Assembly (NCBI GenBank): GCA_951813535.1
Contig: OX638345.1
Location: 1,067,029-1,131,028, forward strand
Length of the DNA stretch: 64,000 bases
Direction of reading: 5' to 3'
DNA from: an uncultured Dehalococcoidia bacterium
Lineage (GTDB): Bacteria; Chloroflexota; Dehalococcoidia; Lucifugimonadales; UBA3495
In this document: piece after piece, positions 2,090 through 58,935 of the stretch
Layout of the letters: each line of letters begins with the position of its first letter
How positions within the stretch are numbered: the first letter of the stretch is position 1
The notes under the pieces: model-generated
Database searches by the model: none
Seen by the model: the letters and a program-made list of their open reading frames with translations, nothing else
Told to the model about the DNA's origin: nothing
Program-made: the position numbers and the translations under genes

Positions 2090-3458
2090 AGCTCCGTATC
2101 TGGTCGGTGGCCGCGGCTTTGTTCCTGTTTGCGGGCCTTGCTGGTTGCGGGGAGGACATCCCCGCGGTCGTTTCTCCGACGGCGTAGGCACCGACTGAGG
2201 CAGCCTTGACCACCTCCGTCCTTCCAGCTCCAACGGCGGCGGAACTGCACTCGGACAAGGACCGGTCTGTTCCATCCGTCGGACCTGCGGATCTGGGCGA
2301 GCTGGTGCGGGGAAACAACGCTTTCGCTTTCGACCTGTATCACGCCCTGAGCGGTCGTGAAGGCAACCTGTTCTATTCCCCCTTCAGCATCTCCCAAGCC
2401 CTCGCCATGACCGCCGCTGGGGCCAGGGGGGAGACACTGAGCCAGATGGAGACCACGCTTCACCACAGGCTTCCGCAAAGCGAACTGCATCCGCATTCAA
2501 CGCCTTGGACCGGACCCTTGCGTCGAGAGGCCAAGAGCCAGGGGGTGTGCCCAACGACGCGGGAGAAGCCAGACAGTATTTTCGCCTGAACATCGCCAAC
2601 GCACTCTGGGGCCAGCAGGGCTATGAATTCCTACCCGACTTTCCGGACGTGCTGGCCACGAACTACGGGGCCGGCATGATGGCCGCGGACTTCGCGGGCG
2701 CGCCGGAGGAGGCTGGCGTCAGGATCAACGACCGGGTCGCTGAAGAAACCGAAAGCAAGATCAAGGATCTCGTGCCGACGGGGATCATAGACGAATCCAC
2801 GCGGTTGGTGCTCACCAACGCCATCTATTTCAACGCCTCGTGGCTCTGGCAGTTCAACCCGAGGGATACCGAGGTGCGTCCGTTTAATCTGGCCGGAGGC
2901 GGAACGGTGGCAGTCCCGATGATGACGGAGACCACAAAGGATTTCTACGGCTACGCCAGGGGCCACGGTTACCAGGCGGTTGACCTGCCGTACTCCTGGG
3001 GGGAGCTGTCCATGACGATCCTGCTGCCCGACCAGGGTAGGCTGGAAGAATTCGAAGGCTCGCTGGACACGGCAATGCTTGACCGGATCATCGATGAGAT
3101 CGAGATTGACTACATCACCCTCACGATGCCGTTGTTCGAGTTCGAATCGGAGTTTGACTTGGGAGATACCCTGGCTGGAATGGGGATGGCCGACGCCTTC
3201 GCCAGCGGCGCTGACTTTTCAGGCATGACCAGGTCCAGGGACCTGTGGATTCGCGCAGTAGTGCACAAGGCGTTCGTCTCAGTGGACGAAGAGGGGACAG
3301 AGGCGGCCGCCGCCACTGGGGTTGTCATGCTTACGTCAGGTCCCAGCAAGGAACCCATTCCGATGACGGTCGACCCGCCTTTCATATTCCTCATCCGCGA
3401 CGCCGGCACCGGCACGATCCTGTTCCTGGGCCGCGTGTCGAATCCCAATCCGGAATGA
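2086..3458 (+). pseudogene. Serpin-type lipoprotein, disrupted by an in-frame TAG and a frameshift
   Basis: The first 34 codons encode a lipoprotein signal peptide with a lipobox (LAGC near residue 20) and then an in-frame TAG at 2185-2187. The same frame continues as the serpin N-terminus (hinge region NLFYSPFSIS, near 2370). One base is missing near 2493, after which the remaining serpin continues in another frame to 3458. The C-terminal part keeps the inhibitory hinge EEGTEAAAAT and the family signature PPFIFLIRD, so the ancestor was an inhibitory serpin that traps serine or cysteine proteases outside the membrane. Either the gene is decaying or the assembly has two errors here. Confidence 0.8.
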
Positions 3459-4117
3459 GGCAGCTGAGCATCGCGGACCGCGGCCCGAGTGCCCGCCCCA
3501 AGCTCTCTGCGCGGTCGTCCTGGGGATTCGTTCGTCTCCATAGCTTGAAGTGCGCCCGGACATCGGGTTGTTTCCCGTCTGCAGGGCGATCTCCCACCGT
3601 CGCTAGCTTGACCAAACCGACGTAGTGCCACCAGTTTGACGGCAGGAATGGCGACGGTCTGCCTCGCCGGCCTGACCGGCGACGGCTGGCGTCCCGTCGC
3701 GACAGTCCTTACCATCGCGGCTATCAGCGGCGTGCGAGGCTGGCGCAGGGTGGCAGCGTACACCTCATCAGCGCTGGCGGGGCCGGTCGTGCTCGACAGG
3801 GGCGCTCGTCGGGGCATGGCCGCCACTGGGCCGGCGCCGGGCTTGATCTCGCCGATGACGCCGGCGGCCACCGCGCTCCTGATGACGTGGTGGCGGCAGT
3901 AGTCCTGGCCAGCGATGCGGTAAAGGGTCTTCGCGTAGCCGGCGAGCGTGTCGATCCAGCGGTTCTGTTTCCGTTCTACAAGCGACGCAGGTTAGCGAAC
4001 GTGTTGTCCGACGTAATGGATGTTGGGCGAACCAACGCGAGTGCCGTTAAACCCAGAAGCACAGGAACGCGTGCTTATCCACCCCGCCACGACACGTCCC
4101 CTATCCGTGGACTGTGG
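3459..4117. other. Stretch without a confident gene
   Basis: No intact gene is supported between the serpin and the PQQ-type gene. An open frame on the minus strand from about 3995 down to 3600 has protein-like composition at its start (residues reading TLYRIAGQDYCRHHVIRSAV near 3872-3930) but loses that character quickly and has no ribosome site. It may be a remnant of a deleted gene; I cannot assign it. Confidence 0.4.
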
Positions 4118-5467
4118 CTAAGGAAGCTGCGGGATTCTGCTGCCGGGTGGAAGCAAATGATACTCTACGACGGTCTCTTCCTGAGTCAGAGTTTCCACGC
4201 CTTCGCAATCTATCCGGTAGGTGGAGCGCCGCAACAGCAACGGCGCGTCTTTCACGAACTCCCGCTCCCACCGGGTCTTCCTCGAATCCGACCAACCTTC
4301 ATAATAAAGGGTGGCTCTCCCGTACAGTTCGCCGATGCCCTTGAGCTCAAAATCAGGGTACGAGCGTTCGTCGCCGGCAGAAACGTACACCACGTCGTCA
4401 ACTACGACCGGACGGGAAGCATCGCCGGTGGTGCGATATTCCCACAACAGACGACCGGTGCGGGCATCAAGAGCGCTTACGCAACCGTGGTGCCGGATCC
4501 GTTCCAGGTCCGCCCCCTGCCGATAAGCGTTGGAGAAGTCCCGATTGGCGGTGGCGTAAACGACGGCGTCCGCGACAACGAGTAAGGACCAGCGGTGAGC
4601 GTCCCTCGTATGTCGCCACCGCAACTTCCCCGTCGCGGTGTCCAGCGCATGGAGGTGTGGGTCCCCGGGGCCCTGGTACACCAAACCGCCCGCAACGACC
4701 GGTCCCACCCATAACTCCCCCGCGGTCTCGTAACGCCAGCGCGGGTCGCCCGTGGCCGCATCCAGGGCATAGACGTGTTGATCCTTCGAGCCGAAGTACA
4801 CCGTGTCCTGGACCACGACCGCCAAGCAGCGGATCACGTCGCCGGCCGCAAAGCTCCAACGCAGTTCCCCAGTGACGGCATCAAGGGCATGCATTCGGCC
4901 ATTGAAAGAGCCGACGTACACCATGCCACTGGCCAGAACCGGGTCGGCCCACAATTCGTTCCACGATCCGCGGGGGATGTCGTACCTCCACAACTCGTCC
5001 CCACCGGAGGCATCGAGGGCAAACACGACCCCTGTCCTGGGTGTGTGCTCGTCCCAAAACTCGCCGCTGACGTATACCACGCCATCTACGACCAGAGGCG
5101 GTGCGGAAGCCACACCCAGAACCTCGCGGAGCCAGCGGAGTTCGCCGGTGGCCTTTTCCAGGGAATACACCTGATTGATCCCGGTGGCAACGAGCAGCGA
5201 ATCGCCGGCCAGGTCAGGGGAGAAATCGGAGCCGACTTCGCTTTGGTAGCTCCATAACACCTCGGGCGTGGGGGCCATGGCATACTCTTCCGGCCTGTTT
5301 TCGCCCGGAGCCATAGGCGAACAGGTGTTGGTCGGCTCCGACCGTTACGGAGATGCAACCCCGCTCAAGCCCGCTGACGCGCACGCCAGGATCATCGTCA
5401 GCACGGTAAGACAGGCACCCAACGTTGACAGGGCAGCAATGGTCGGGCGGTGGGGAGATCGCATCAT
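4118..5467 (-). pseudogene. PQQ-repeat beta-propeller lipoprotein with in-frame TAA after the signal peptide
   Basis: From ATG 5467 the frame encodes a typical lipoprotein signal peptide (lipobox ILAC near residue 28), then meets TAA at 5347-5345 (codon 41). The same frame continues for about 400 residues of PQQ-type propeller blades with repeated motifs such as VYALDAATGDPRWRYET and DGVVYVSG, as in BamB-like and quinoprotein propellers. These bind partner proteins at the cell surface or act as enzymes with PQQ; no calcium or PQQ ligands are obvious. If translation restarts at ATG 5314 the product would stay in the cytoplasm. The stop falls in a low-complexity linker between anchor and propeller. 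Confidence 0.75.
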
Positions 5468-5705
5468 CTTGGTAGAGAACGGCGCCAAACACGCCCACGA
5501 TAGACCGAGAATGTTGATCAGGAATGGGGGGTGGCAGCAATGACCTGGAATGGTAACGTTTGGAGCTCACGAATTGCCTGCATGGAGAGAGCCGCCGACA
5601 ACGTGAATTTCGCGGCAATCACAGCAATGCAGCGGGCGCCGTTCGATAGAACTGCCGGTGGCGCGTTGCAAAAAGCTCAAGTTCTGGGAGGCCGACCGCC
5701 GCCGC

Positions 5706-6905
5706 ATGCATAAGCATAACTCAAAACCGACAGCCAAGCCCGGAACGATTTACGCGCGCCGGCCGCTCCCCGACCGTATCTGCCCAGTGCTGCTCGTAAC
5801 ATTTGGCGCATTGCTTATCGTCTTCGGCTCCGGCTGCAACCTGGCGCCGCCAGCCAATCCAGGATATCTCAGGGTGTCCGACGAACGGTCCAGCCGAATG
5901 ATCACCTTCGACGCCGATACCTTTGAGATCCACCGCAGCGTCAAATTCCCACCGTCGTATACCCACCACGCCCACCGGTTGGAAATGGATCCCTGGGGGC
6001 GGATCTGGGCGGGATACGTCGAACCGTGTCCGGATTGGATCGGATGCTGGCCGTGGGATCAACGTAAGGGTGTATCGATATTCTCCCCACAGGGCGGTCT
6101 GTTGCACTCCCGGGAGCTGCTGTGCGGCGCCCAGGGCGGCATCGCCTTCGCCAATGGGTACGCCTTCATCGGGTGTGCGAGGATCGTGGACGTTGTGGAC
6201 GTCGAAACCCTCGCCGTGGTCAAGCGCATCGAATATGAGGTTCCTCCCAGCGATAGGCATCGCGAAGGTCATTGGGGCACGACCGCCATCAAGGAGATCA
6301 ACGGGTCGATTCTCGTGATCATGCGCGGACCTGCGCCAGAGGGATACGGGGGTCTGAGCGACTTCGGCGTGGCGAGCGTGGGCGTGATCGATCCCGAGAC
6401 GCTCACGTTCAGGGGCTATCTGAACAGTCTGGAACCAGGGTCGCGGATTTCGGACGCTGTGGAGGTGGACGGCAAGGCGTGGCTGTTCAACGAACTGAGT
6501 CACATCGTCGCAAGGCGGCCTCGGATGGACGTCTACGTGATGGACCCGCAATCCCTGGAGATCGTGGATGGTTTCAATCTGGAGAACCCATTCCCGAAGT
6601 GGGCGCGCCAGCACGCCGACGGTTCCGTGTACATTTTTCACAGGGTATCGGGCGACCGGTCGCGAAGGGCCGGGTTCAGAAGCGGCGTCACTCGACTGGA
6701 TCCAGTGACACGAACGGAGGAGTTCATCGCCACTCCGGACAGTCTGAGCGCCGACGGCCTGGATGTGCATCGAGGGCGTCCGTGTCTGGCTGAGGCACAG
6801 GGCGAGGACCGCGGTCTATGGTGCATGAACGAGGACGGAGAACCGGAGCTTCAAATTCCCGGGGAAGTTGCCACGGGTGTATTGTTCAGACCGCCTGGAT
6901 CGTGA
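5706..6905 (+). CDS. Beta-propeller lipoprotein of unknown function
   Basis: A 399-residue protein starting at ATG 5706, chosen because it gives a proper signal peptide: basic start, hydrophobic core VLLVTFGALLIVF and lipobox GSGC. The frame is open upstream to 5658. The mature part has repeated strand motifs (DERSSRMITFDADTFEI, VDVVDVETLAVVKRIE, VGVIDPETLTFRGYL, VYVMDPQSLEIVDGF) typical of a seven-bladed YVTN/NHL-like propeller on the outer face of the membrane. Unlike the two neighbouring lipoprotein genes it is intact. Confidence 0.7.
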   Translation: MHKHNSKPTAKPGTIYARRPLPDRICPVLLVTFGALLIVFGSGCNLAPPANPGYLRVSDERSSRMITFDADTFEIHRSVKFPPSYTHHAHRLEMDPWGRIWAGYVEPCPDWIGCWPWDQRKGVSIFSPQGGLLHSRELLCGAQGGIAFANGYAFIGCARIVDVVDVETLAVVKRIEYEVPPSDRHREGHWGTTAIKEINGSILVIMRGPAPEGYGGLSDFGVASVGVIDPETLTFRGYLNSLEPGSRISDAVEVDGKAWLFNELSHIVARRPRMDVYVMDPQSLEIVDGFNLENPFPKWARQHADGSVYIFHRVSGDRSRRAGFRSGVTRLDPVTRTEEFIATPDSLSADGLDVHRGRPCLAEAQGEDRGLWCMNEDGEPELQIPGEVATGVLFRPPGS

Positions 6906-34213: not shown

Positions 34214-36106
34214 TCAGACTTCGCGGAACTCGCCTTCCACCGTGTCGTCGGGACCGGTGTTGGCGTCTCCGGGAGCGGCGCCCGGTCCGCCGGACCCAGG
34301 CTGGGAATATACGGCCTGGCCCACCCGTTGCAGGGCTTCGTTCAACTCGTTCATCGCCGTCTGCATCTGGGCCACGTTGTTGGCCGCGATGGCCGATCGG
34401 AGCGCCTCCAGCTTGCCCTCGGCCTCGGCCTTCAGGTCGGCAGGCAACGTCTCGGCGTTTTCGGTCAGCAGGCGCTCGGCTGAGTAGGCCAGGCTGTCAG
34501 CCTGGTTGCGGGTCTCGATTTCGGCGCGCCGTTGCCGGTCGCTCTCTTCGTTGGCCTCGGCCTCGGACATCATGCGCTCGATGTCTTGGTCGGAAAGGCC
34601 GCTGCTGGTCTGGATGACAATGCGCTGCTCTTTGCCGGTGCCCTTGTCCTGGGCGGACACGCTCAGGATGCCGTTGGAGTCGATGTCGAAGGTGACGTCG
34701 ATCTGCGGCACGCCGCGGGGAGCCGGCAGGATGCCGTCCAGCATGAAACGGCCGATGGTCTTGTTGTCGGCCGACATGGGCCGTTCGCCCTGCAGCACGT
34801 GGATGTCCACGCTGCCCTGACCGTCGGCAGCCGTGGTGAAGGTCTCGGTCTTCTTGGTCGGAATGGTGGTATTCCGGGGAATCAACGCGGTGGTCACGTT
34901 GCCCAGGGTCTCGATGCCGAGGGTCAGCGGGGTGACGTCCAGCAGGACGATGTCGCCCACGTCGCCGCCCAGCACGCCGGCTTGGATGGCCGCGCCCAGC
35001 GCCACCGCCTCGTCCGGATTGACGGAGCGGGAAGGCTCCTTGCCGAATATCTGCTGCACCTTGGCCTGGACGGCCGGCATGCGGGTCATGCCGCCGACGA
35101 GGATGACGTCGTTGATGCTGCCCGCGCTGACGCCGGCGTCGGAGATTGCCTGGCGGCACGGCCCTGCGGTCCGGTCAATCAGGTTAGCCACCAGCTGCTC
35201 CAGTCGGGAACGGCTCAGGGGCTTCACCAGGTGCTGCGGGCCGCTGGCGTCGGCGGTAATGAACGGGAGGTTGATTTCCGTTTCCAGGGTGCTGGACAGC
35301 TCGATCTTGGCGCGCTCGGCCGCGTCGCGCAGCCGCTGCAGGGCCATGCGGTCCTGGGACAGGTCGATCCCGGTTTCCGCCCGGAACTCCGTGACCAGCC
35401 AGTTCAAAATGGCTTCGTCGAAGTCGTCGCCGCCGAGGTACGTGTCCCCGTTCGTGGACAATACTTCGAAGACCCCGGCGCCCAGGTCGAGGATCGTGAT
35501 GTCGAAGGTGCCACCGCCCAGATCGAACACGGCGATCTTGGAATCGGTCTGCTGCCGGTCGATGCCGTAGGCCAATGCGGCGGCGGTGGGTTCGTTGATG
35601 ATGCGCTTCACGTCCAGGCCGGCGACCTTGCCGGCGTCCACCGTCGCCTGACGCTGGGAATCGTTGAAGTAGGCCGGCACGGTGATCACGGCCTCGGTGA
35701 TGCGTTCGCCCAGCTTGGCCTCGGCGTCCTGGCGGATTTTCTGCAGGATCATGCTGGAGATCTGCGGTGGGGCGTAGTTCTGCCCCGCCATCTCCACATG
35801 GGCATCGCCGTTGTCGCCAGCGGCGATCGTGTAGGGCAGACGCTTGGAGGCGTCCTGCACCTCGGGGTCGCTGAAACGCCTCCCCATCAGCCGTTTCACG
35901 GAGAAGATGGTGTTGTCGGGGTTGGTAACCGCCTGTCGCTTGGCCGTTTGCCCCACGTACCGTTCGCCGCTGCGGGCGTTGACCGCTACCACGGAGGGCG
36001 TGATGCGGCTTCCCTCGGCGCTCTCAACCACATCAGCCTCACCGGCTTCGATCACCGCAGCCACCGAATTGGTCGTGCCGAGGTCGATGCCTAGAATCCT
36101 TGCCAT
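34214..36106 (-). CDS. dnaK: Chaperone DnaK (Hsp70)
   Basis: A 630-residue Hsp70. ATG 36106 is preferred over the longer frame because GAGGAG precedes it and the product starts [14 protein letters not shown]. The ATPase signatures ([30 protein letters not shown]) and the substrate-binding domain ([13 protein letters not shown]) are intact. It folds and protects proteins with GrpE as nucleotide exchanger; a DnaJ gene is not in the window. It is the third gene of hspR-grpE-dnaK. Confidence 0.97.
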
Positions 36107-38633: not shown

Positions 38634-39689
38634 TCACTTGGCGGCGTGGATGGTTCCTGCGAGCCCGTCGGTGATGCGTCCGACCACGGCGGCGCAGGGC
38701 GCTCCCTCCTCGCGGAGGGCGGCCACCAGGGCGTCGGCGCGGGCGGCTGGAACCGACATCAGCAGGCCGCCGGAGGTCTGCGCGTCGCAGAGCAGCAGCC
38801 GGTCCTCGTCGGTCAAACCTTCGTCCCAGGTCACCACGTCCTCGACGCTGCTGAGGTTGCGGTGGGTGCCGCCGGGAGCGACGCCCCGGTCGAGCAGTTC
38901 CCTGGTACCGGCCAGCACGGGAATGGCGCCCAGGTTCACCTCGGCGGCAACGCCGCTGCCCTTGACCATGCTCTTCAGGTGGCCCATCAGGCCGAAGCCG
39001 GTGATGTCGGTCGCCGAGTTGACGCCCACCCGCTGCATGGCCACCGCGCCGGGCTTGTTGAGCGCGGCCATGGTCTGGACGGCGCCGGCCATAACGTCGG
39101 GGTCGACCACGCCCTGCTTGCCGGCGGTGGTGATGATGCCGGTGCCGATGGGCTTGCTGAGGACCAGGACGTCGCCGGGCCTGGCTCCGGCGTTGCTGAC
39201 CTGCTTGCCGGGCTCGACCACGCCGATGACGGACAGGCCGTACTTGGGCTCGGGGTCGTCCACGGTGTGGCCGCCGACGATGAGACACTCGGCCTCGGCC
39301 GCCTTGGCGTAGCCGCCCTGCAGGGTGCGCCCGAGGATTGACTTGTCCAACGATGCGGGGAAGCCGACCACGTTCAGGGCGATGAGCGGCTTGCCGCCCA
39401 TGGCGTAGACGTCGGACAGGGAGTTGGCGGCGGCGATGGCTCCGTACTCATAGGGGTCGTCGGTGATGGGCGGGAAGAAGTCGACGGTGACGATGAGCGC
39501 GGTCTCGTCATTGATGCGATAGACCGCGGCGTCATCGCCGGTCTCCGCACCCACCAGCAGGTCGGGGTGCGAGAGCAGCGGAACATAACTCAGGACCTGG
39601 CCCAGGTCCTCAAGGCTCAGCTTGGCCGCTCAACCCGCGCAGTGGGACAGTTCGGTGAGGCGGATGGGTGGGGTATCGAGTTGGGTCAT
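38634..39689 (-). CDS. selD: Selenide, water dikinase, itself a selenoprotein
   Basis: The frame starts at ATG 39689 (AAAGGAAT upstream) and reads CAG-UGA-AAK at codons 17-23: the UGA at 39632-39630 is codon 20 and occupies the catalytic Cys/Sec position three residues before Lys. SelD makes selenophosphate from selenide and ATP. The rest has GDDAAVYRI, DVYAMGG and GGHTVDDPE, normal for the family. A 7-bp hairpin follows the UGA. Translation from the internal start at 39554 would lack the active site, so Sec insertion is needed. Product 351 residues. Confidence 0.9.
39592..39610 (-). promoter_or_regulatory. SECIS-like hairpin in selD
   Basis: In the mRNA AGGACCU and AGGUCCU form a 7-bp stem with loop GGGCC, starting 19 nt after the UGA. 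Location and G-rich loop fit a bacterial SECIS, which is read by SelB. Confidence 0.65.
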
Positions 39690-51780: not shown

Positions 51781-52881
51781 TCAGCCGCTGCCCGAACCGG
51801 GGGGCTGCTCGGCGCGGGGGCGGCTGATTCGGCCCTTTACTGGTCCAATCCGCCAAACCGTAACGCCACCCCGCGCGTCGAGGGCGGCAAGCCCGTCCCC
51901 GTCAGGCCGCCAGTACAATTCGGCCACTGAGTCCCCCACATCTTCGGCCCCGATCGGGCTGCCGTTTCCGTTTCTCAGTAGCGACCACACAACCACGGCA
52001 CCATCGCGCGCGCCCGATGCCAGGCGCCTCGCGCCGGGCGCGAATGTTAAGGTCGTTATGGGCTCATGATGAAACTCCAGAACGCCGGGCTGCGTGCCTT
52101 CAGGCCCCTTTCTCCGGAAGCTCCAAACCGTGACCGCCTCTCCACCACCGGTGGCCAAAAGGGTGCCGGCGCTATCGAAAGCCAGGGCCGACGGCTTGCC
52201 AGGATATCCTGACATCATGGAGTCCCGTTCCGTGGATCGACGCCAGAAGTGCACCGTGTTGTCCTGGCTACCGCAGACCACGATATCCCCGTTCGGGCTC
52301 AACACCATCGACACCAGGGACCCCTGCCACTCCATTTTCTGGCGAAGCGAGTCGGTGGAAGGGTTGAAGAACGACACTCGGCCGTAACAGGCCGTGGCCA
52401 GCTCATCTGCGCTCGACCAGGCGATGGCGCTGACGGTGCTGGGGTGATCGTCGGACCGCCAGACCTCCGCTCCGTCCGCGTCATACGCACAAACCTGCCG
52501 GGAGCACGAGGCCGCCAACAATTGGCCGTCCGGCGACCACGATACGTTTTCCACCCAACCGCTGCCGACGTCGATAGAACGGGTTACCTGACCTTCGGCG
52601 GCGCTCCAGATCAAGACTCGCCCGTCCTGGCCGGCAGTAGCGAAGGCGGTCCCGCTCGGGTGGATCGCCATCCCGAGCACACCATCTTCATGAACCTTGT
52701 GCCGCTCCCAGACGGCCGCGCCGGATTTGCCATCGAAGCCGTACACGCCACCCTCGGCATCGCCGACCACCAGCGCCTCACCGCCCAAGACCCAACCACC
52801 GGCGATAGCGTAGTCGCCGACCGCCGCAGACCAGCCTCGGTCAAGAACGCCGGTTGGGCTGCCGGCATTTAGATCAGACAT
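51781..52881 (-). CDS. WD40-repeat protein coupled to the CobW GTPase
   Basis: ATG 52881 follows GGGAGGAG and overlaps the 3' end of the cobW-type gene by 13 nt, indicating translational coupling. The 366-residue product has WD40 repeats (DGVLGMAIHPSGTAFATAG, HPSTVSAIAWSSADELATA, GAVVVWSLL) and no signal peptide. WD40 proteins are often found with COG0523 GTPases in zinc-limitation loci and may hold a client metalloprotein. A role in metal delivery is inferred. Confidence 0.8.
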   Translation of the reverse strand: MSDLNAGSPTGVLDRGWSAAVGDYAIAGGWVLGGEALVVGDAEGGVYGFDGKSGAAVWERHKVHEDGVLGMAIHPSGTAFATAGQDGRVLIWSAAEGQVTRSIDVGSGWVENVSWSPDGQLLAASCSRQVCAYDADGAEVWRSDDHPSTVSAIAWSSADELATACYGRVSFFNPSTDSLRQKMEWQGSLVSMVLSPNGDIVVCGSQDNTVHFWRRSTERDSMMSGYPGKPSALAFDSAGTLLATGGGEAVTVWSFRRKGPEGTQPGVLEFHHEPITTLTFAPGARRLASGARDGAVVVWSLLRNGNGSPIGAEDVGDSVAELYWRPDGDGLAALDARGGVTVWRIGPVKGRISRPRAEQPPGSGSG

Positions 52882-54287
52882 GCTTCGAACTCCTCCCGCA
52901 TACTCTGTCCATCGAGGTTGCGGCCGATGAAGACGAGCTGATTGCGCCGGGGCGCGTCCCCCCATTCGCGGTCCGGCTGGCCGTCAAAGAGCATGTGAAC
53001 GCCCTGGAAGACGAAACGACGCGATTCTCCCGCAACACTGATGAAGCCCTTCATTCGGAAGATGTCCACGCCACGCTCGCTGAGCAGTTTGCTAAGCCAC
53101 GCGTTGAGCTTTTGGGGATCGCAGTCGCCGTCTACCTCGATAGAGATCGATCCCACCTCATCGTCGTGCTCGTGCTGGGCGACCCAGGTTCGCTCAGCTT
53201 CGACAGGAACCAGCGCTCCCTTGATGCGTGGTGTCTCCTCTGTGCAGGCCGGCTCGGAGCAAAAATTGCCCCCCAGCTTGAAAGCCTCTCCATCCGCGTT
53301 CTTCAGTTGGAGATCGAATTCCTCCGCGAGGTGCTGGGCATAGAGGCCAACCCGCCCCGGCGCATCAACCTCAAAGAAGAAGGACTTGCGCCCTGGAGAA
53401 TCAAGCCGGAGGCTCACATGCTTTCCGGCAGGAATCTCCTCCCCGGGATGAATGATCTCCGCAGGTTCAGCGTATTGCCGTACACACCACTCGGCGCCCT
53501 CTCGAAGGGCAGCGTCATCCGTGCCCTGGCCCGACACGACGACGAGCGACATCGCCGGATCAGGTCCATCGGCAAGGTTGAGTTCGTAGCGGCCGGTATC
53601 GAGCGAATAGACTCCCGTCCATTCGAAGGGGTACTCCGGCTCGAGGAAAGTGGGACGACGCTCGAGCACCTGGTCCAAGTCGAAGGCGCTGAGGTCGAGT
53701 ACCGTATCGACGGGTACGTTCGCCCGCTCGCTGCGCACGACTCGCGCCATTCGGTTCATGCCGCGGAGGCGAGCTTCCAAACCGTCGAGGGTATCGCCGT
53801 TGACGAGGTCCGTCTTGTTGAGGACGAGAACGTCTGCGAACGCGATTTGCTCCGTGCTTTCGTCGCTTCGGCCGAGCTGCTGCTCGATGTGGGCCGCATC
53901 GACCAGCGTGACGATCCCGTCAAGCGAGTACTCCGCGCGAAGCTCGTCGTCCATGAAGAAAGTCTGAGCGACCGGACCCGGATCGGCCAGCCCCGTGGTC
54001 TCCACCAGCACATAGTCGAACTTGTCGCGGCGCTTGTTGAGATTGTTGAGTACGCGAATCAGGTCTCCGCGCACCGTGCAGCAGATGCAACCGTTCGACA
54101 TTTCGAATACCTCCTCGTCAGCGTTGATGACGAGGGCCTGATCGATGCCGACCTCCCCATACTCGTTCTCGATCACGGCGATGCGCTTGCCGTGCTCCTC
54201 CGTCAAAATCCGGTTGAGCAGGGTCGTCTTGCCAGATCCGAGGAACCCAGTGAGGATGGTGACGGGTACTTTGCGAAACGTGTTCAT
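52869..54287 (-). CDS. COG0523/CobW-type GTPase, metal chaperone
   Basis: A 472-residue GTPase with Walker A GFLGSGKTTLL (residues 14-24), the CxCC metal site CICCTVRGD (about 68-76), Walker B region YVLVETTGLADPG and NKTD. The long C-terminal half carries a HxHDDE segment (QHEHDDEVG) usual for zinc or cobalt transfer. RBS AAAGGAGGACC precedes the start. It is probably cotranscribed with the WD40 gene and regulated by zinc status. Confidence 0.85.
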   Translation of the reverse strand: MNTFRKVPVTILTGFLGSGKTTLLNRILTEEHGKRIAVIENEYGEVGIDQALVINADEEVFEMSNGCICCTVRGDLIRVLNNLNKRRDKFDYVLVETTGLADPGPVAQTFFMDDELRAEYSLDGIVTLVDAAHIEQQLGRSDESTEQIAFADVLVLNKTDLVNGDTLDGLEARLRGMNRMARVVRSERANVPVDTVLDLSAFDLDQVLERRPTFLEPEYPFEWTGVYSLDTGRYELNLADGPDPAMSLVVVSGQGTDDAALREGAEWCVRQYAEPAEIIHPGEEIPAGKHVSLRLDSPGRKSFFFEVDAPGRVGLYAQHLAEEFDLQLKNADGEAFKLGGNFCSEPACTEETPRIKGALVPVEAERTWVAQHEHDDEVGSISIEVDGDCDPQKLNAWLSKLLSERGVDIFRMKGFISVAGESRRFVFQGVHMLFDGQPDREWGDAPRRNQLVFIGRNLDGQSMREEFEACLI

Positions 54288-55095: not shown

Positions 55096-55785
55096 ATGGC
55101 GATCAATCCCGACGATTTCCCACCGGGAACCTACCAAGAACTGTCGCTGTTCCCTCTGAACAACGTGGTTCTGTTCCCCGGCATGCCCCTGCCGCTCCAC
55201 ATTTTCGAGGAGCGGTACAAGGCCATGATCGGCGACTGCGTCGAACGGGATGAACCGTTCGGAGTGCTCCTCATCAAGGAAGGCAACGAGGTGGGCGAAC
55301 CGGCGGAGCCGCATTCCGTTGGAACCACCGCTCGCGTTTCGCAGGTTCAACGCCTGCAGGAAGGTCGCCTGAACATCCTCACCCGGGGTGAGACCCGGTT
55401 CGAGTTGCTGCAAACAGTGCGCACCGTGCCCCATCTGGTTGGGTTGGTCCGCTTCATGGAAGAGGACGAGGGAGACGTTTCCGCGACCGCATTGGCCGGC
55501 GTGCGCGAACAGTTTGTCCAACTGCAGCGTCAACTCACCGCGATAGCCGGCGGCTGGGACCGGGAGGTCACGGTTCCCGATGAGCCCATCGCCCTGGCCC
55601 GCGTTGCCTCGGCCACTTTGGCCGTCAGTCTGCCCCTGCCGCCCGATGTGCGGCAATCCCTGCTGGAAACGCCCACCGCCGGCGGACAGTTGGAAAAGCT
55701 GCAAACCCTGATGCGGCAGGCGAATCGCATTGTGGCCGAACAGGCAGAGCAGAACACGCCGTTCAAGGGGCCGCGCCTCAACTAA
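55096..55785 (+). CDS. LON-domain substrate-binding protein
   Basis: A 229-residue protein matching the LON N-terminal (PUA-like) domain: LSLFPLNNVVLFPGMPLPLHIFEERY, then GTTARVSQVQRL and a helical bundle. There is no ATPase or protease domain, so it is the stand-alone class that may select substrates or sense unfolded proteins. Start ATG 55096. Confidence 0.85.
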   Translation: MAINPDDFPPGTYQELSLFPLNNVVLFPGMPLPLHIFEERYKAMIGDCVERDEPFGVLLIKEGNEVGEPAEPHSVGTTARVSQVQRLQEGRLNILTRGETRFELLQTVRTVPHLVGLVRFMEEDEGDVSATALAGVREQFVQLQRQLTAIAGGWDREVTVPDEPIALARVASATLAVSLPLPPDVRQSLLETPTAGGQLEKLQTLMRQANRIVAEQAEQNTPFKGPRLN

Positions 55786-55951: not shown

Positions 55952-56884
55952 TTAACCAGTTTGCCCGGCTCCGTAGATTCGGCGCGCTCCCGCCTCGGGG
56001 ATCATCCCGGAGAAGAGCTCGGGATGGATCACCTCGGCGAGTATCTCCAGACCGGTAACGAGCCGGGGACCGGACCGGCTGGTGTAGTTGCTGGCGTCGA
56101 TCACGTACACACGATCGTTCTGCACTGCCGGCAGGGAGGCCCATCCCTCTTTTTCGGTGAGCAGCGGGAGGTCCTCCATGGCCCGGGGGACCTCAAAGCC
56201 ACACGGCATGACCACGATCACCTCCGGTTGGCTCTCGACGACCGCGTCCCACTCCAGCGGGAAAGAACCCATCTCCTTGTCGCCGAAGGAGTTGGTTCCC
56301 CCGGCGAGTTCCACCATTTCCGGGACCCAATGGCCGCCGCACATCAGCGGATCGGTCCATTCCAGGTGCAGTACCCGTGGATGGTTGTCGGCCAACGCGG
56401 CGCGCTGGGTCACAGCATCGATACGACCCTGCATCCGGGCTGTGACCTGCTCGGCAACGGATTCGGAGGCCGTGGCGCGGCCCACCCGGCGCACGTCTTC
56501 CAGCACGTCGCCAAGGTATTGGGGATCCAGCGAAATAACCTCGGGCTGCTTCTCCATGTTGGCGGTGGACTCGGCGACCTGCCGAGAGGACACCGCTCAA
56601 ACCTCGCAGATGGCCTGGGTCAGCAGCAGATCGGGGTTGGCCGCGTCCAGTATCTCCTGGTCGATGTGATAGATGCCGAGACCCTCGGCCAGCCGCTCGG
56701 ATATCACGCGGCTGATCTCGCCACTGCTGGGTTGTGTGCCCTCGAAAACGCTGCGGACCACCCAAGGCTTGTTTTTGGCCTGGGCCGGGTAGTCGCACTC
56801 GTGGGTCACGCCGTAGAGTTGGTCCTCCAGCCCCAACGAGTAAACGATCTCGGTGGCGGAGGGGAGAAATGAACAAATTCGCAT
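55952..56884 (-). CDS. BtuF-like substrate-binding protein with selenocysteine
   Basis: The frame from ATG 56884 reads MRICSFLPSATEIVYSLGLE and continues through an in-frame UGA (56599-56597, codon 96) in QAIC-EV-UGA-AVSS to a stop at 55952. The usual homologues have CDVCAVS here, with the second Cys replaced by Sec. Family: periplasmic-type cobalamin/iron binding proteins (COG0614), but no signal peptide is present, so it is probably cytoplasmic. No permease or ATPase is adjacent. It follows the CPA2 antiporter in the same direction. Product 310 residues with Sec. Confidence 0.85.
56570..56586 (-). promoter_or_regulatory. SECIS-like hairpin in the BtuF-like gene
   Basis: In the mRNA CUCGGC-AGGUC-GCCGAG starts 10 nt after the UGA. 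The E. coli fdhF SECIS has an AGGUCU loop at an 11-nt distance, so both sequence and position agree. Confidence 0.8.
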
Positions 56885-56940: not shown

Positions 56941-58935
56941 CTAATCCGCCTCCCGCTGGGCGGCCGGTTCCGCGCCTTCAGCCGGTGGCGCTGGTGCCGG
57001 GCTGAAAAGCTCGATGCGTTCCTCCAGGAAACGCCACAGGTCTTCGGTCGAGTCTTCGTCGGCCTGGGCGGCGGCGGCGCGCACCTGCTGGACCGGTTGC
57101 GCGTCCGGGTCGGCCCAGTGGTTGAAGGCCGGGCTCTCGACGTCCATTGCCTCGAAGGCGCTGGAGACTGGCGGATCGGTACGTCGGGGAGCCGGCGGAG
57201 CAATGAACGTGTTGCGGAAAACTGGTCGCAGGACGCGGTGAACGTGGAAGCCGGCAAACACCAGGGCGCCGGCTGAAGCCAGGAGCAGGAACAGGGACAG
57301 CGGAACCGACAGGCTTCCCAGAGAGAACAGCTGGATTATCAGGGGGATCATCAGCAGGACGCCGACGAGCAAGAAGGCTGTGGCCATTCCGTCGCGCAGC
57401 AACGTGCGCAGGGTGTATCGCGCCGGCTGACCCGCGGTATCACGCACCGTCGCGCGAACAGTGAGGCTGGCGACCACCCGCAATTCACGCCAGATGGCAA
57501 TGGCGGCCGGCAGGTTGATCCCCACCGTGGCGCCGCCGAGGATTACGCCCAACAACGCATGGGACACCGAATCGGGATCGGCCAGCAGGTCGGGCAGGGT
57601 GTACACCGCTGCGGTGCCTATGGCGGTTAGCACCGCAATGATGCAGATGTCAATGATGATGCGGCGAACCGAGTTTTTCAGCAGGCGTCCAGTCTCCCCG
57701 GGGAGGGAGAACGCGGCCCAGAACGACTGTATGCCCAGGAAGATGACCAAGTTGACGGCCAGGACGGCCGGCGGGGCGCGGCGCTCCAACCAGTCGTAAG
57801 TGGGCGTCGCGATCTTCGAGGTCAGTGGGGCGAATACTGCCGTGATCGCGGTGGCGATTGCCAGCACTGGCGCTACTACGGGGCCGACCGCCGCGTTGGT
57901 GGCGCTGAGATGACCGATCGCCAGCGAAAACTCGCCCATCTGCGGCATTGTCATACCGACCTGCGCCGCGGTGCGCGACCGGCGTCCCGCCAGTACCGCC
58001 CCTATGGTGTTGGCCACGATCTTGCCGCCCATGAACACACCCACCACCACCAGGGCCGGCACGATGTGGTCGTCCAGCGTTCGATAGTCGATCAGCATCC
58101 CGATGGAGAGGAAGAACAGCGCGCCGAACATGTCGCGCACCGGGTTGACGAGCCGCGTGACCCGGCCGGCCGCGTCGGTGTCACCGATAACCACGCCGAT
58201 CAGGAAAGCGCCGGCCGCCGCCGACAACCCGAGAAACTCAGCTCCCAACGCCAGTCCGAAGCAACAGCCCAGCGAAGCCACCAGGAGAGTTTCATCGGAT
58301 TGCATCCGCGAGAGGAAGCGCATCAGGCGGGGCGCCAGCAGCGCGCCGAAAGCCAGGGCCGCGATGCAGAAGATGCCCAGCTTCGCAGCCAACCACCCCA
58401 CGTCCGCCAGGTCGGTGGAACCCGTGGTCGCAAGCCCGGCCAACAGGGTCAGCAGGATGACCGCGGCAAAGTCTTCCACCAGGAGGATGCCAACGATGGT
58501 TTGCCCCCATCCGGAGCGGAGGTTGCCGCTGTCCCGCAAACCCTTCAGCAGTATCGCCGAACTGCTAATGGCCATGGCGCCGCCCAGGTACAGGGCGTTA
58601 GCCCCGGAGATGCCCAGGACTTTGTCAGCGATCAGCACACCCAGGTAGGTCAAGGTGGAGATCTCCACGACGCCGATTACCAGCACTCGCAGACCGATTT
58701 CCCGGATACGCCGCCAGCCCAACTCCAGGCCGATTCCGAACAGCAGGAGTATGAGCCCCAGCTCGGCAAGTAACTCGATGGTGTCCAGATTACTGATCAC
58801 CGGGTGCGGCAGAGTGTACGGCCCAATCAACAACCCGGCGATGAGATAACCGAGTACGGGCGGTTGCCAGACGAGACGGGCCAGCGCCAGCCCTACGGCG
58901 GCGATGGCCATCGCGATGGCAAAGTCTTTCAGCAA
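56941..58935 (-). CDS. CPA2-family cation/proton antiporter
   Basis: A 664-residue membrane protein with about 12-13 transmembrane helices, the CPA2 signature LLGYLIAGLLIGP-like (PPVLGYLIAGLLIGPYTLP), and the conserved Glu/Asp helix VGILLVEDFAAVILL. The acidic C-terminal tail after residue 560 is soluble. These exchange K+ or Na+ for protons (KefB/NapA-like). The BtuF-like gene begins 56 nt downstream on the same strand. Confidence 0.85.
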   Translation of the reverse strand: MLKDFAIAMAIAAVGLALARLVWQPPVLGYLIAGLLIGPYTLPHPVISNLDTIELLAELGLILLLFGIGLELGWRRIREIGLRVLVIGVVEISTLTYLGVLIADKVLGISGANALYLGGAMAISSSAILLKGLRDSGNLRSGWGQTIVGILLVEDFAAVILLTLLAGLATTGSTDLADVGWLAAKLGIFCIAALAFGALLAPRLMRFLSRMQSDETLLVASLGCCFGLALGAEFLGLSAAAGAFLIGVVIGDTDAAGRVTRLVNPVRDMFGALFFLSIGMLIDYRTLDDHIVPALVVVGVFMGGKIVANTIGAVLAGRRSRTAAQVGMTMPQMGEFSLAIGHLSATNAAVGPVVAPVLAIATAITAVFAPLTSKIATPTYDWLERRAPPAVLAVNLVIFLGIQSFWAAFSLPGETGRLLKNSVRRIIIDICIIAVLTAIGTAAVYTLPDLLADPDSVSHALLGVILGGATVGINLPAAIAIWRELRVVASLTVRATVRDTAGQPARYTLRTLLRDGMATAFLLVGVLLMIPLIIQLFSLGSLSVPLSLFLLLASAGALVFAGFHVHRVLRPVFRNTFIAPPAPRRTDPPVSSAFEAMDVESPAFNHWADPDAQPVQQVRAAAAQADEDSTEDLWRFLEERIELFSPAPAPPAEGAEPAAQREAD

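Follow-up and report, generated by a model that had tools for sequence, protein, structure and literature searches.

The question raised by this locus is whether a UGA codon inside a gene for a BtuF-like binding protein is read as selenocysteine (Sec) and, if it is, what such a protein does. The window, the 64,000-nucleotide stretch of DNA analyzed here, comes from a marine or sponge-associated Chloroflexota bacterium whose relatives are known from assembled genomes. The UGA, in the context TQAICEV-U-AVSSRQ, is the sole interruption of a 310-codon frame running from 56884 to 55952; the sequence-only reading of this DNA had described the same frame with UGA at codon 96 (IC-EV-U-AVS), and its positions were reproduced. 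In the standard-code list of open reading frames (ORFs), the two halves of the gene appear as separate ORFs. In a profile search of the whole genome, the locus was the best of four Peripla_BP_2 matches, with an open frame of 341 amino acids containing one TGA, and the gene product matched PF01497 with 79.9 bits (cut-off, 27.5). The CxxU motif (C93-x-x-U96) lies inside this BtuF-like domain. The features of the locus are listed in Table 1.

Table 1. Features of the predicted selenoprotein locus and related genes in the window
Feature	Position	Strand	Remarks
Predicted selenoprotein gene	55952..56884	minus	310 codons plus stop; Peripla_BP_2/BtuF-like fold; leader peptide absent
In-frame UGA, codon 96, predicted to be read as Sec	56597..56599	minus	Always UGA or Cys among 95 aligned relatives
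Codon for Cys93, which opens the CxxU pair	56606..56608	minus	Invariant in the alignment
Predicted SECIS hairpin, CUCGGC-AGGUC-GCCGAG	56570..56586	minus	6-bp stem; AGGUC loop at 56576-56580
Na+/H+ exchanger-type antiporter gene, upstream	56941..58935	minus	PF00999; 56 nt away, same strand
LON substrate-binding domain gene, downstream	55096..55785	plus	PF02190; convergent
CobW/COG0523 GTPase gene	52869-54287	minus	Carries a GCICCT metal motif; separated from the selenoprotein gene by about 1.7 kb
WD40 protein gene	51781-52965		After the CobW/COG0523 gene
SelD (selenophosphate synthase) gene, decoding machinery	38634..39689	minus	In-frame UGA at 39632-39630, CAG-U-AAK

The SECIS hairpin and the decoding machinery

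The hairpin proposed by the sequence-only reading was found where that reading had placed it, with its stem starting 10 nt and its loop 16 nt past the UGA. Folding of this RNA had been suggested as a check; the 46-nt region has a folding energy of -22.1 kcal/mol (z score of -3.2 against shuffled sequences). In a single gene, given the encoded amino acids, such a hairpin is not unusual (P of about 0.15), and the case for a SECIS element therefore rests on its conservation across relatives. All 36 distinct sequences have an AGGUN loop and keep the four loop-proximal pairs, and 33 of them keep the two outer pairs; the last loop base varies freely (U in 15, G in 9, C in 8, and A in 4). Compensatory double changes were found at three of the six pairs (pairs 2, 4, and 5): pair 4 changed from G-C to A-U in L013 and, separately, in L133/L134, and pairs 5 and 2 underwent double changes that preserve pairing in L132. 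Loss of the hairpin in relatives, which would have counted against the proposal, was thus not seen for the inner pairs.

The same stretch is the most synonymously frozen of the whole gene, with the wobble base in the loop being free. All 15 divergent representatives share codons 101 (CGG), 102 (CAG), and 104 (GCC), and 13 of the 14 Glu codons at position 105 are the same codon. Residues 101 to 105 (56584-56570) read RQVAE or QQVAE in nearly all Sec proteins and vary in the Cys proteins, which indicates that the SECIS RNA constrains the protein sequence. In E. coli fdhF, the SECIS element lies directly after the UGA and carries AGGU in its apical loop. The hairpin described here resembles it in both respects and differs in stem sequence and host protein; an fdhF-like SECIS element, as had been proposed, is strongly supported. 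A bacterial SECIS model (PMC13188914) has a G at loop position 1 or 2, a loop 16 to 37 nt after the UGA, and an energy of -7.5 kcal/mol or less, and the AGGUC loop, its distance, and the energy given above agree with all three. At gathering scores, Rfam matched only tRNAs in the 64-kb window, and its SECIS entry was not matched. Judged by its sequence conservation, the predicted hairpin is a genuine bacterial SECIS element. Sec rows use GUU as the codon just before the UGA (56602-56600) in 37 of 42 cases, and all 13 Val codons among the representatives are GUU. This is well above the usual synonymous conservation and is possibly an effect of UGA context.

The genome, a single contig that is 99.8% complete, encodes SelB (354.8 bits; cut-off, 242), SelA (542 bits; cut-off, 268), and SelD (TIGR00476, 370 bits; cut-off, 125), with one TGA in the SelD frame. 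Covariance matches to tRNA-Sec were unspecific, with 14 of 14 control genomes matching and 5 of them above the cut-off; the tRNA-Sec gene, with anticodon UCA, was therefore confirmed by ARAGORN. SelD in the window is itself predicted to be a selenoprotein, and an 8-bp hairpin with the loop GGC lies 27 nt after its UGA. Elsewhere in the window, a SECIS-like hairpin of 9 bp with the loop GTC follows a UGA at 34481 on the plus strand, in a long frame (536 codons downstream) that probably only shadows another gene.

Conservation of the UGA and origin of selenocysteine

The protein was searched against 60 related genomes, the named relatives being Dehalococcoidia, SAR202, and other Chloroflexota metagenome-assembled genomes, and then against 250 genomes of the same order, which is of the Dehalococcoidia/SAR202 type. 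Matches at an E value of <1e-80 were found in 74 genomes, and 47 of these carry an in-frame TGA. Of the 47, 45 belong to one family, and the other two, G038 and G109, represent two further families; the remaining families of the order have open frames without TGA. In a 393-genome sample of the class, no TGA-bearing match was found outside that order. The UGA-bearing relatives that the sequence-only reading had proposed to look for therefore exist. Column 96 of the alignment (95 rows) contains UGA in 42 rows, Cys in 53, and no other residue, which bears out the expectation that relatives carry CxxC here and leaves no row with a different sense codon. Substitutions among close relatives are mainly in third positions on both sides of the UGA, which indicates that the downstream part is selected as coding sequence.

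A tree was built with the UGA and SECIS columns removed, 31 Sec rows kept, and the root assumed among the Cys rows. A branch with a bootstrap of 99 and an SH-aLRT of 94 separates the Sec rows from all others, and their clade joins Chloroflexota Cys rows at 96/85; they also form one clade in the full 95-row set. Since the Sec rows are a single clade nested in Cys relatives, one Cys-to-Sec change is indicated, and Sec most likely arose once, in place, at the second Cys of CxxC in one Dehalococcoidia order, as judged from this phylogeny. A second, diverged gene copy with UGA (L135, L136, L061, and L034; 61 to 66% identical) is present in G017, G018, and G022 and possibly in G023, which indicates that the selenoprotein was duplicated after Sec was gained. 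The genome studied here also encodes two Cys paralogues, each with an apparent IS-type transposase gene, recognized by eye, close upstream (L143, about 5395-6531; L144, about 3426-4679).

With the UGA aligned to a fixed Cys, a covarying SECIS element, and a full decoding set, a bacterial selenoprotein gene of the SelB/SECIS type is a well-supported prediction, and the replacement of the second CxxC Cys by Sec, as first proposed from the window, is strongly supported. It is highly improbable that the UGA is a real stop, whether through pseudogenization, a sequencing error, or a division into two proteins with the second starting at the GTG at 56593 (213 amino acids). The two frames in the ORF list would fit such a stop, but the exact UGA is kept in 47 genomes with mainly synonymous changes on both sides, which excludes a sequencing error, and the SECIS covariation and a fold that is continuous across the site also contradict it. 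A variant code reading UGA as Trp or another residue would account for the open frame alone, but it has next to no likelihood, given that 53 homologues have Cys and never Trp at this position, that tRNA-Sec (UCA) and SelA, SelB, and SelD are present, and that a SECIS element is needed for Sec only. Sequencing error, pseudogene, two ORFs, and a Trp-type code were accordingly rejected.

Fold, cellular location, and gene neighborhood

The AlphaFold model has a pLDDT of 93.7, with the fold continuous across codon 96. Among solved structures, heme- and B12-binding proteins come closest to it, with Z scores of 24 to 25; one of them is E. coli BtuF (1N4A, 1N2Z), which shares the two-lobe class III fold (Z score of 24.8 and 2.4 Å over 240 residues for 1N4A). 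In the alignment, C30, Q90, C93, C/U96, W186, and C228 are invariant and E175, W176, D178, and H185 are nearly so. The Cys, Sec, and His residues among them lie in loops after strands 23-27, 86-89, 180-182, and 222-225, in both lobes. In class III binding proteins, loops at such strand ends line the cleft. The strand ends of the model and the alignment thus suggest a cleft that would be lined by Cys30, Cys93, Sec96, His185, and Cys228.

Six aromatic residues of E. coli BtuF contact the corrinoid: Y50, W66, W85, F162, F168, and W196 (PMC5269720). When the MG1655 sequence was aligned to the family, all six were found to be replaced, by E29, I71, Q90, E175, M181, and S207, respectively, with the placements of W66 and W196 being less sure. 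The loss of these contacts argues against B12 binding in the manner of BtuF. C30 adjoins the Y50 site, and CxxU lies within an insert, 3 and 6 residues past the W85 site. The NCBIfam equivalog for BtuF (NF002894) scored 34.6 bits, below its cut-off of 234, and no dedicated NCBIfam model was found above cut-off. No leader peptide was seen on inspection: a conserved MRICSF stands at the start codon, strand 1 spans residues 3 to 5, the mature fold begins at residues 1 to 3, and the frame upstream of the start codon is closed by a stop. The genome gave a single match to FecCD (the BtuC-type permease) at 21.8 bits, under the cut-off of 26.5, whereas 13 of 14 control genomes matched. E. coli BtuF is periplasmic, works with BtuCD, and binds B12, whereas the protein described here has neither leader nor permease. 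Together with the replaced aromatics, these absences make a periplasmic BtuF role unlikely; the protein is likely cytoplasmic, and the label of a B12 importer subunit is doubtful. The absence of a signal peptide and a redox site possibly facing the cytoplasm, both put forward in the sequence-only reading, are in line with these results. Its description of the protein as BtuF-like stands for the fold and not for the features of an importer subunit. Taken together, selenoprotein identity and cytoplasmic location are very probable.

Of 35 Sec loci, 22 have the antiporter gene next to the selenoprotein gene, and the two are perhaps co-transcribed. The LON-domain neighbor recurs in 26 of the Sec loci and in 7 Cys loci of Chloroflexota, and its presence beside both Sec and Cys orthologues indicates that the locus is vertically inherited. 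Two cobalamin riboswitches, one of which lies shortly before a corrin/porphyrin-methylase gene, indicate that the organism uses corrinoids. Among the Cys relatives of other phyla, CobQ and TonB receptor genes follow the gene in L067, a cobalamin adenosyltransferase gene follows it in L111, and DUF71 with an ENGEFH motif occurs in five loci. That DUF71 signature has been assigned to a B12-salvage group (PMC3541065). In about 11 Dadabacteria-type loci, the gene for the CxxC protein precedes genes for a PF01497 protein with a leader, an ABC ATPase, and FecCD; several of these loci also have a TonB receptor gene upstream. One such operon, L074 (4001-7645), encodes a leaderless CxxC protein, a PF01497 protein with a leader-like N terminus, an ABC ATPase, and a FecCD permease, and both types of binding protein thus coexist in it.

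Possible roles and significance

The likeliest role, held tentatively, is that of a cytosolic protein handling cobamides or a metal (cobalt), in which CxxU would serve either as ligand or as redox pair. This reading draws on the genes for cobamide uptake and salvage that neighbor the Cys relatives. The neighbors of the Sec clade are the antiporter and the LON-domain protein and not cobamide genes; since the close neighbor is a cation/proton antiporter, we infer the cobamide role of the Sec proteins by extension. It is only slightly less likely that the protein serves a cytoplasmic response to soft metals or oxidants and has no cobamide role, its Cys3-Sec-His cleft binding Zn, Hg, As, or Cu or acting as a thiol-disulfide relay and its BtuF fold being merely inherited. 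Such a response agrees with the invariance of C30, C93, C/U96, and C228 and the near-invariance of H185 across both lobes, with the lost corrinoid aromatics, and with the monovalent-cation antiporter beside the Sec loci. Against it, Cys relatives of several phyla have genes for the uptake, adenosylation, or salvage of cobamides as neighbors. Export by an unusual route could make the protein a true periplasmic BtuF that feeds a B12 importer. This would explain the PF01497 match and the presence of E. coli BtuF among the closest folds, but it is very unlikely given the missing leader, the FecCD score below cut-off, the low NF002894 score, and the six replaced contact residues. In addition, the CxxC protein of the Dadabacteria-type loci has a second PF01497 protein as its neighbor, and that one carries a leader-like N terminus.

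If the protein handles cobamides or cobalt, the two-lobe BtuF fold would be used in the cytoplasm and would not serve a BtuCDF importer as its periplasmic subunit. The selenolate/thiolate pair of CxxU would act as a ligand of the metal centre, reduce it, or remove its upper ligand, and Cys93 and Sec96 could cycle via a selenylsulfide. A Cys thiolate serves BtuM as a cobalt ligand in the decyanation of B12 (PMC6072759). BtuM is a precedent for thiolate chemistry on B12 by analogy only, being a membrane protein with an unrelated fold. The most specific form of this proposal is more doubtful: a BtuF fold turned cytosolic selenoenzyme, in which CxxU together with Cys30, Cys228, and His185 would act on a corrinoid or metal centre in cobamide salvage through ligand removal, reduction, or transfer. 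To our knowledge, such a chemical role has not been described for the BtuF fold or for any selenoprotein.

The belief of the sequence-only reading that this family was not known as a selenoprotein fails, since a "cobalamin-binding protein BtuF" (cd01144, CxxU) is a selenoprotein entry in Table 1 of PMC9312934 (2022; RUA21600.1) and in a table of PMC13188914 (2026; MDE0719563.1). The latter credits Peng et al. 2016 (PMC5029168), whose main text does not name BtuF. The catalogued entry has the fold family, CxxU, and predicted Sec in common with the protein described here, and domain and motif suggest orthology; in both reviews it is one table line without analysis. To that entry are added here the SECIS covariation, the clade and its single origin, the missing permease, the lost corrinoid contacts, and the neighbors. 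What appears to be new is the evidence for a cytoplasmic protein with a cleft rich in thiols and selenol and not an ordinary vitamin B12 transporter subunit. SaoB and SaoX (Haft and Gwadz 2023) are likewise ABC-type substrate-binding proteins with Sec; they have other NCBIfam models and motifs (CUxxT and UxP; PMC13188914), and those models did not match the protein described here.

The protein is one of few selenoproteins on a substrate-binding fold. Most catalogued selenoproteins are thioredoxin-like redox proteins. With 47 UGA-bearing genomes and close Cys sisters, the value of Sec over Cys can be tested directly in one protein. The BtuF relatives that lack a permease and a leader and lie beside cobamide genes point to an uncharacterized step by which archaea and bacteria handle cobamides or metals, and they suggest that many proteins annotated as "cobalamin-binding BtuF" are misnamed.
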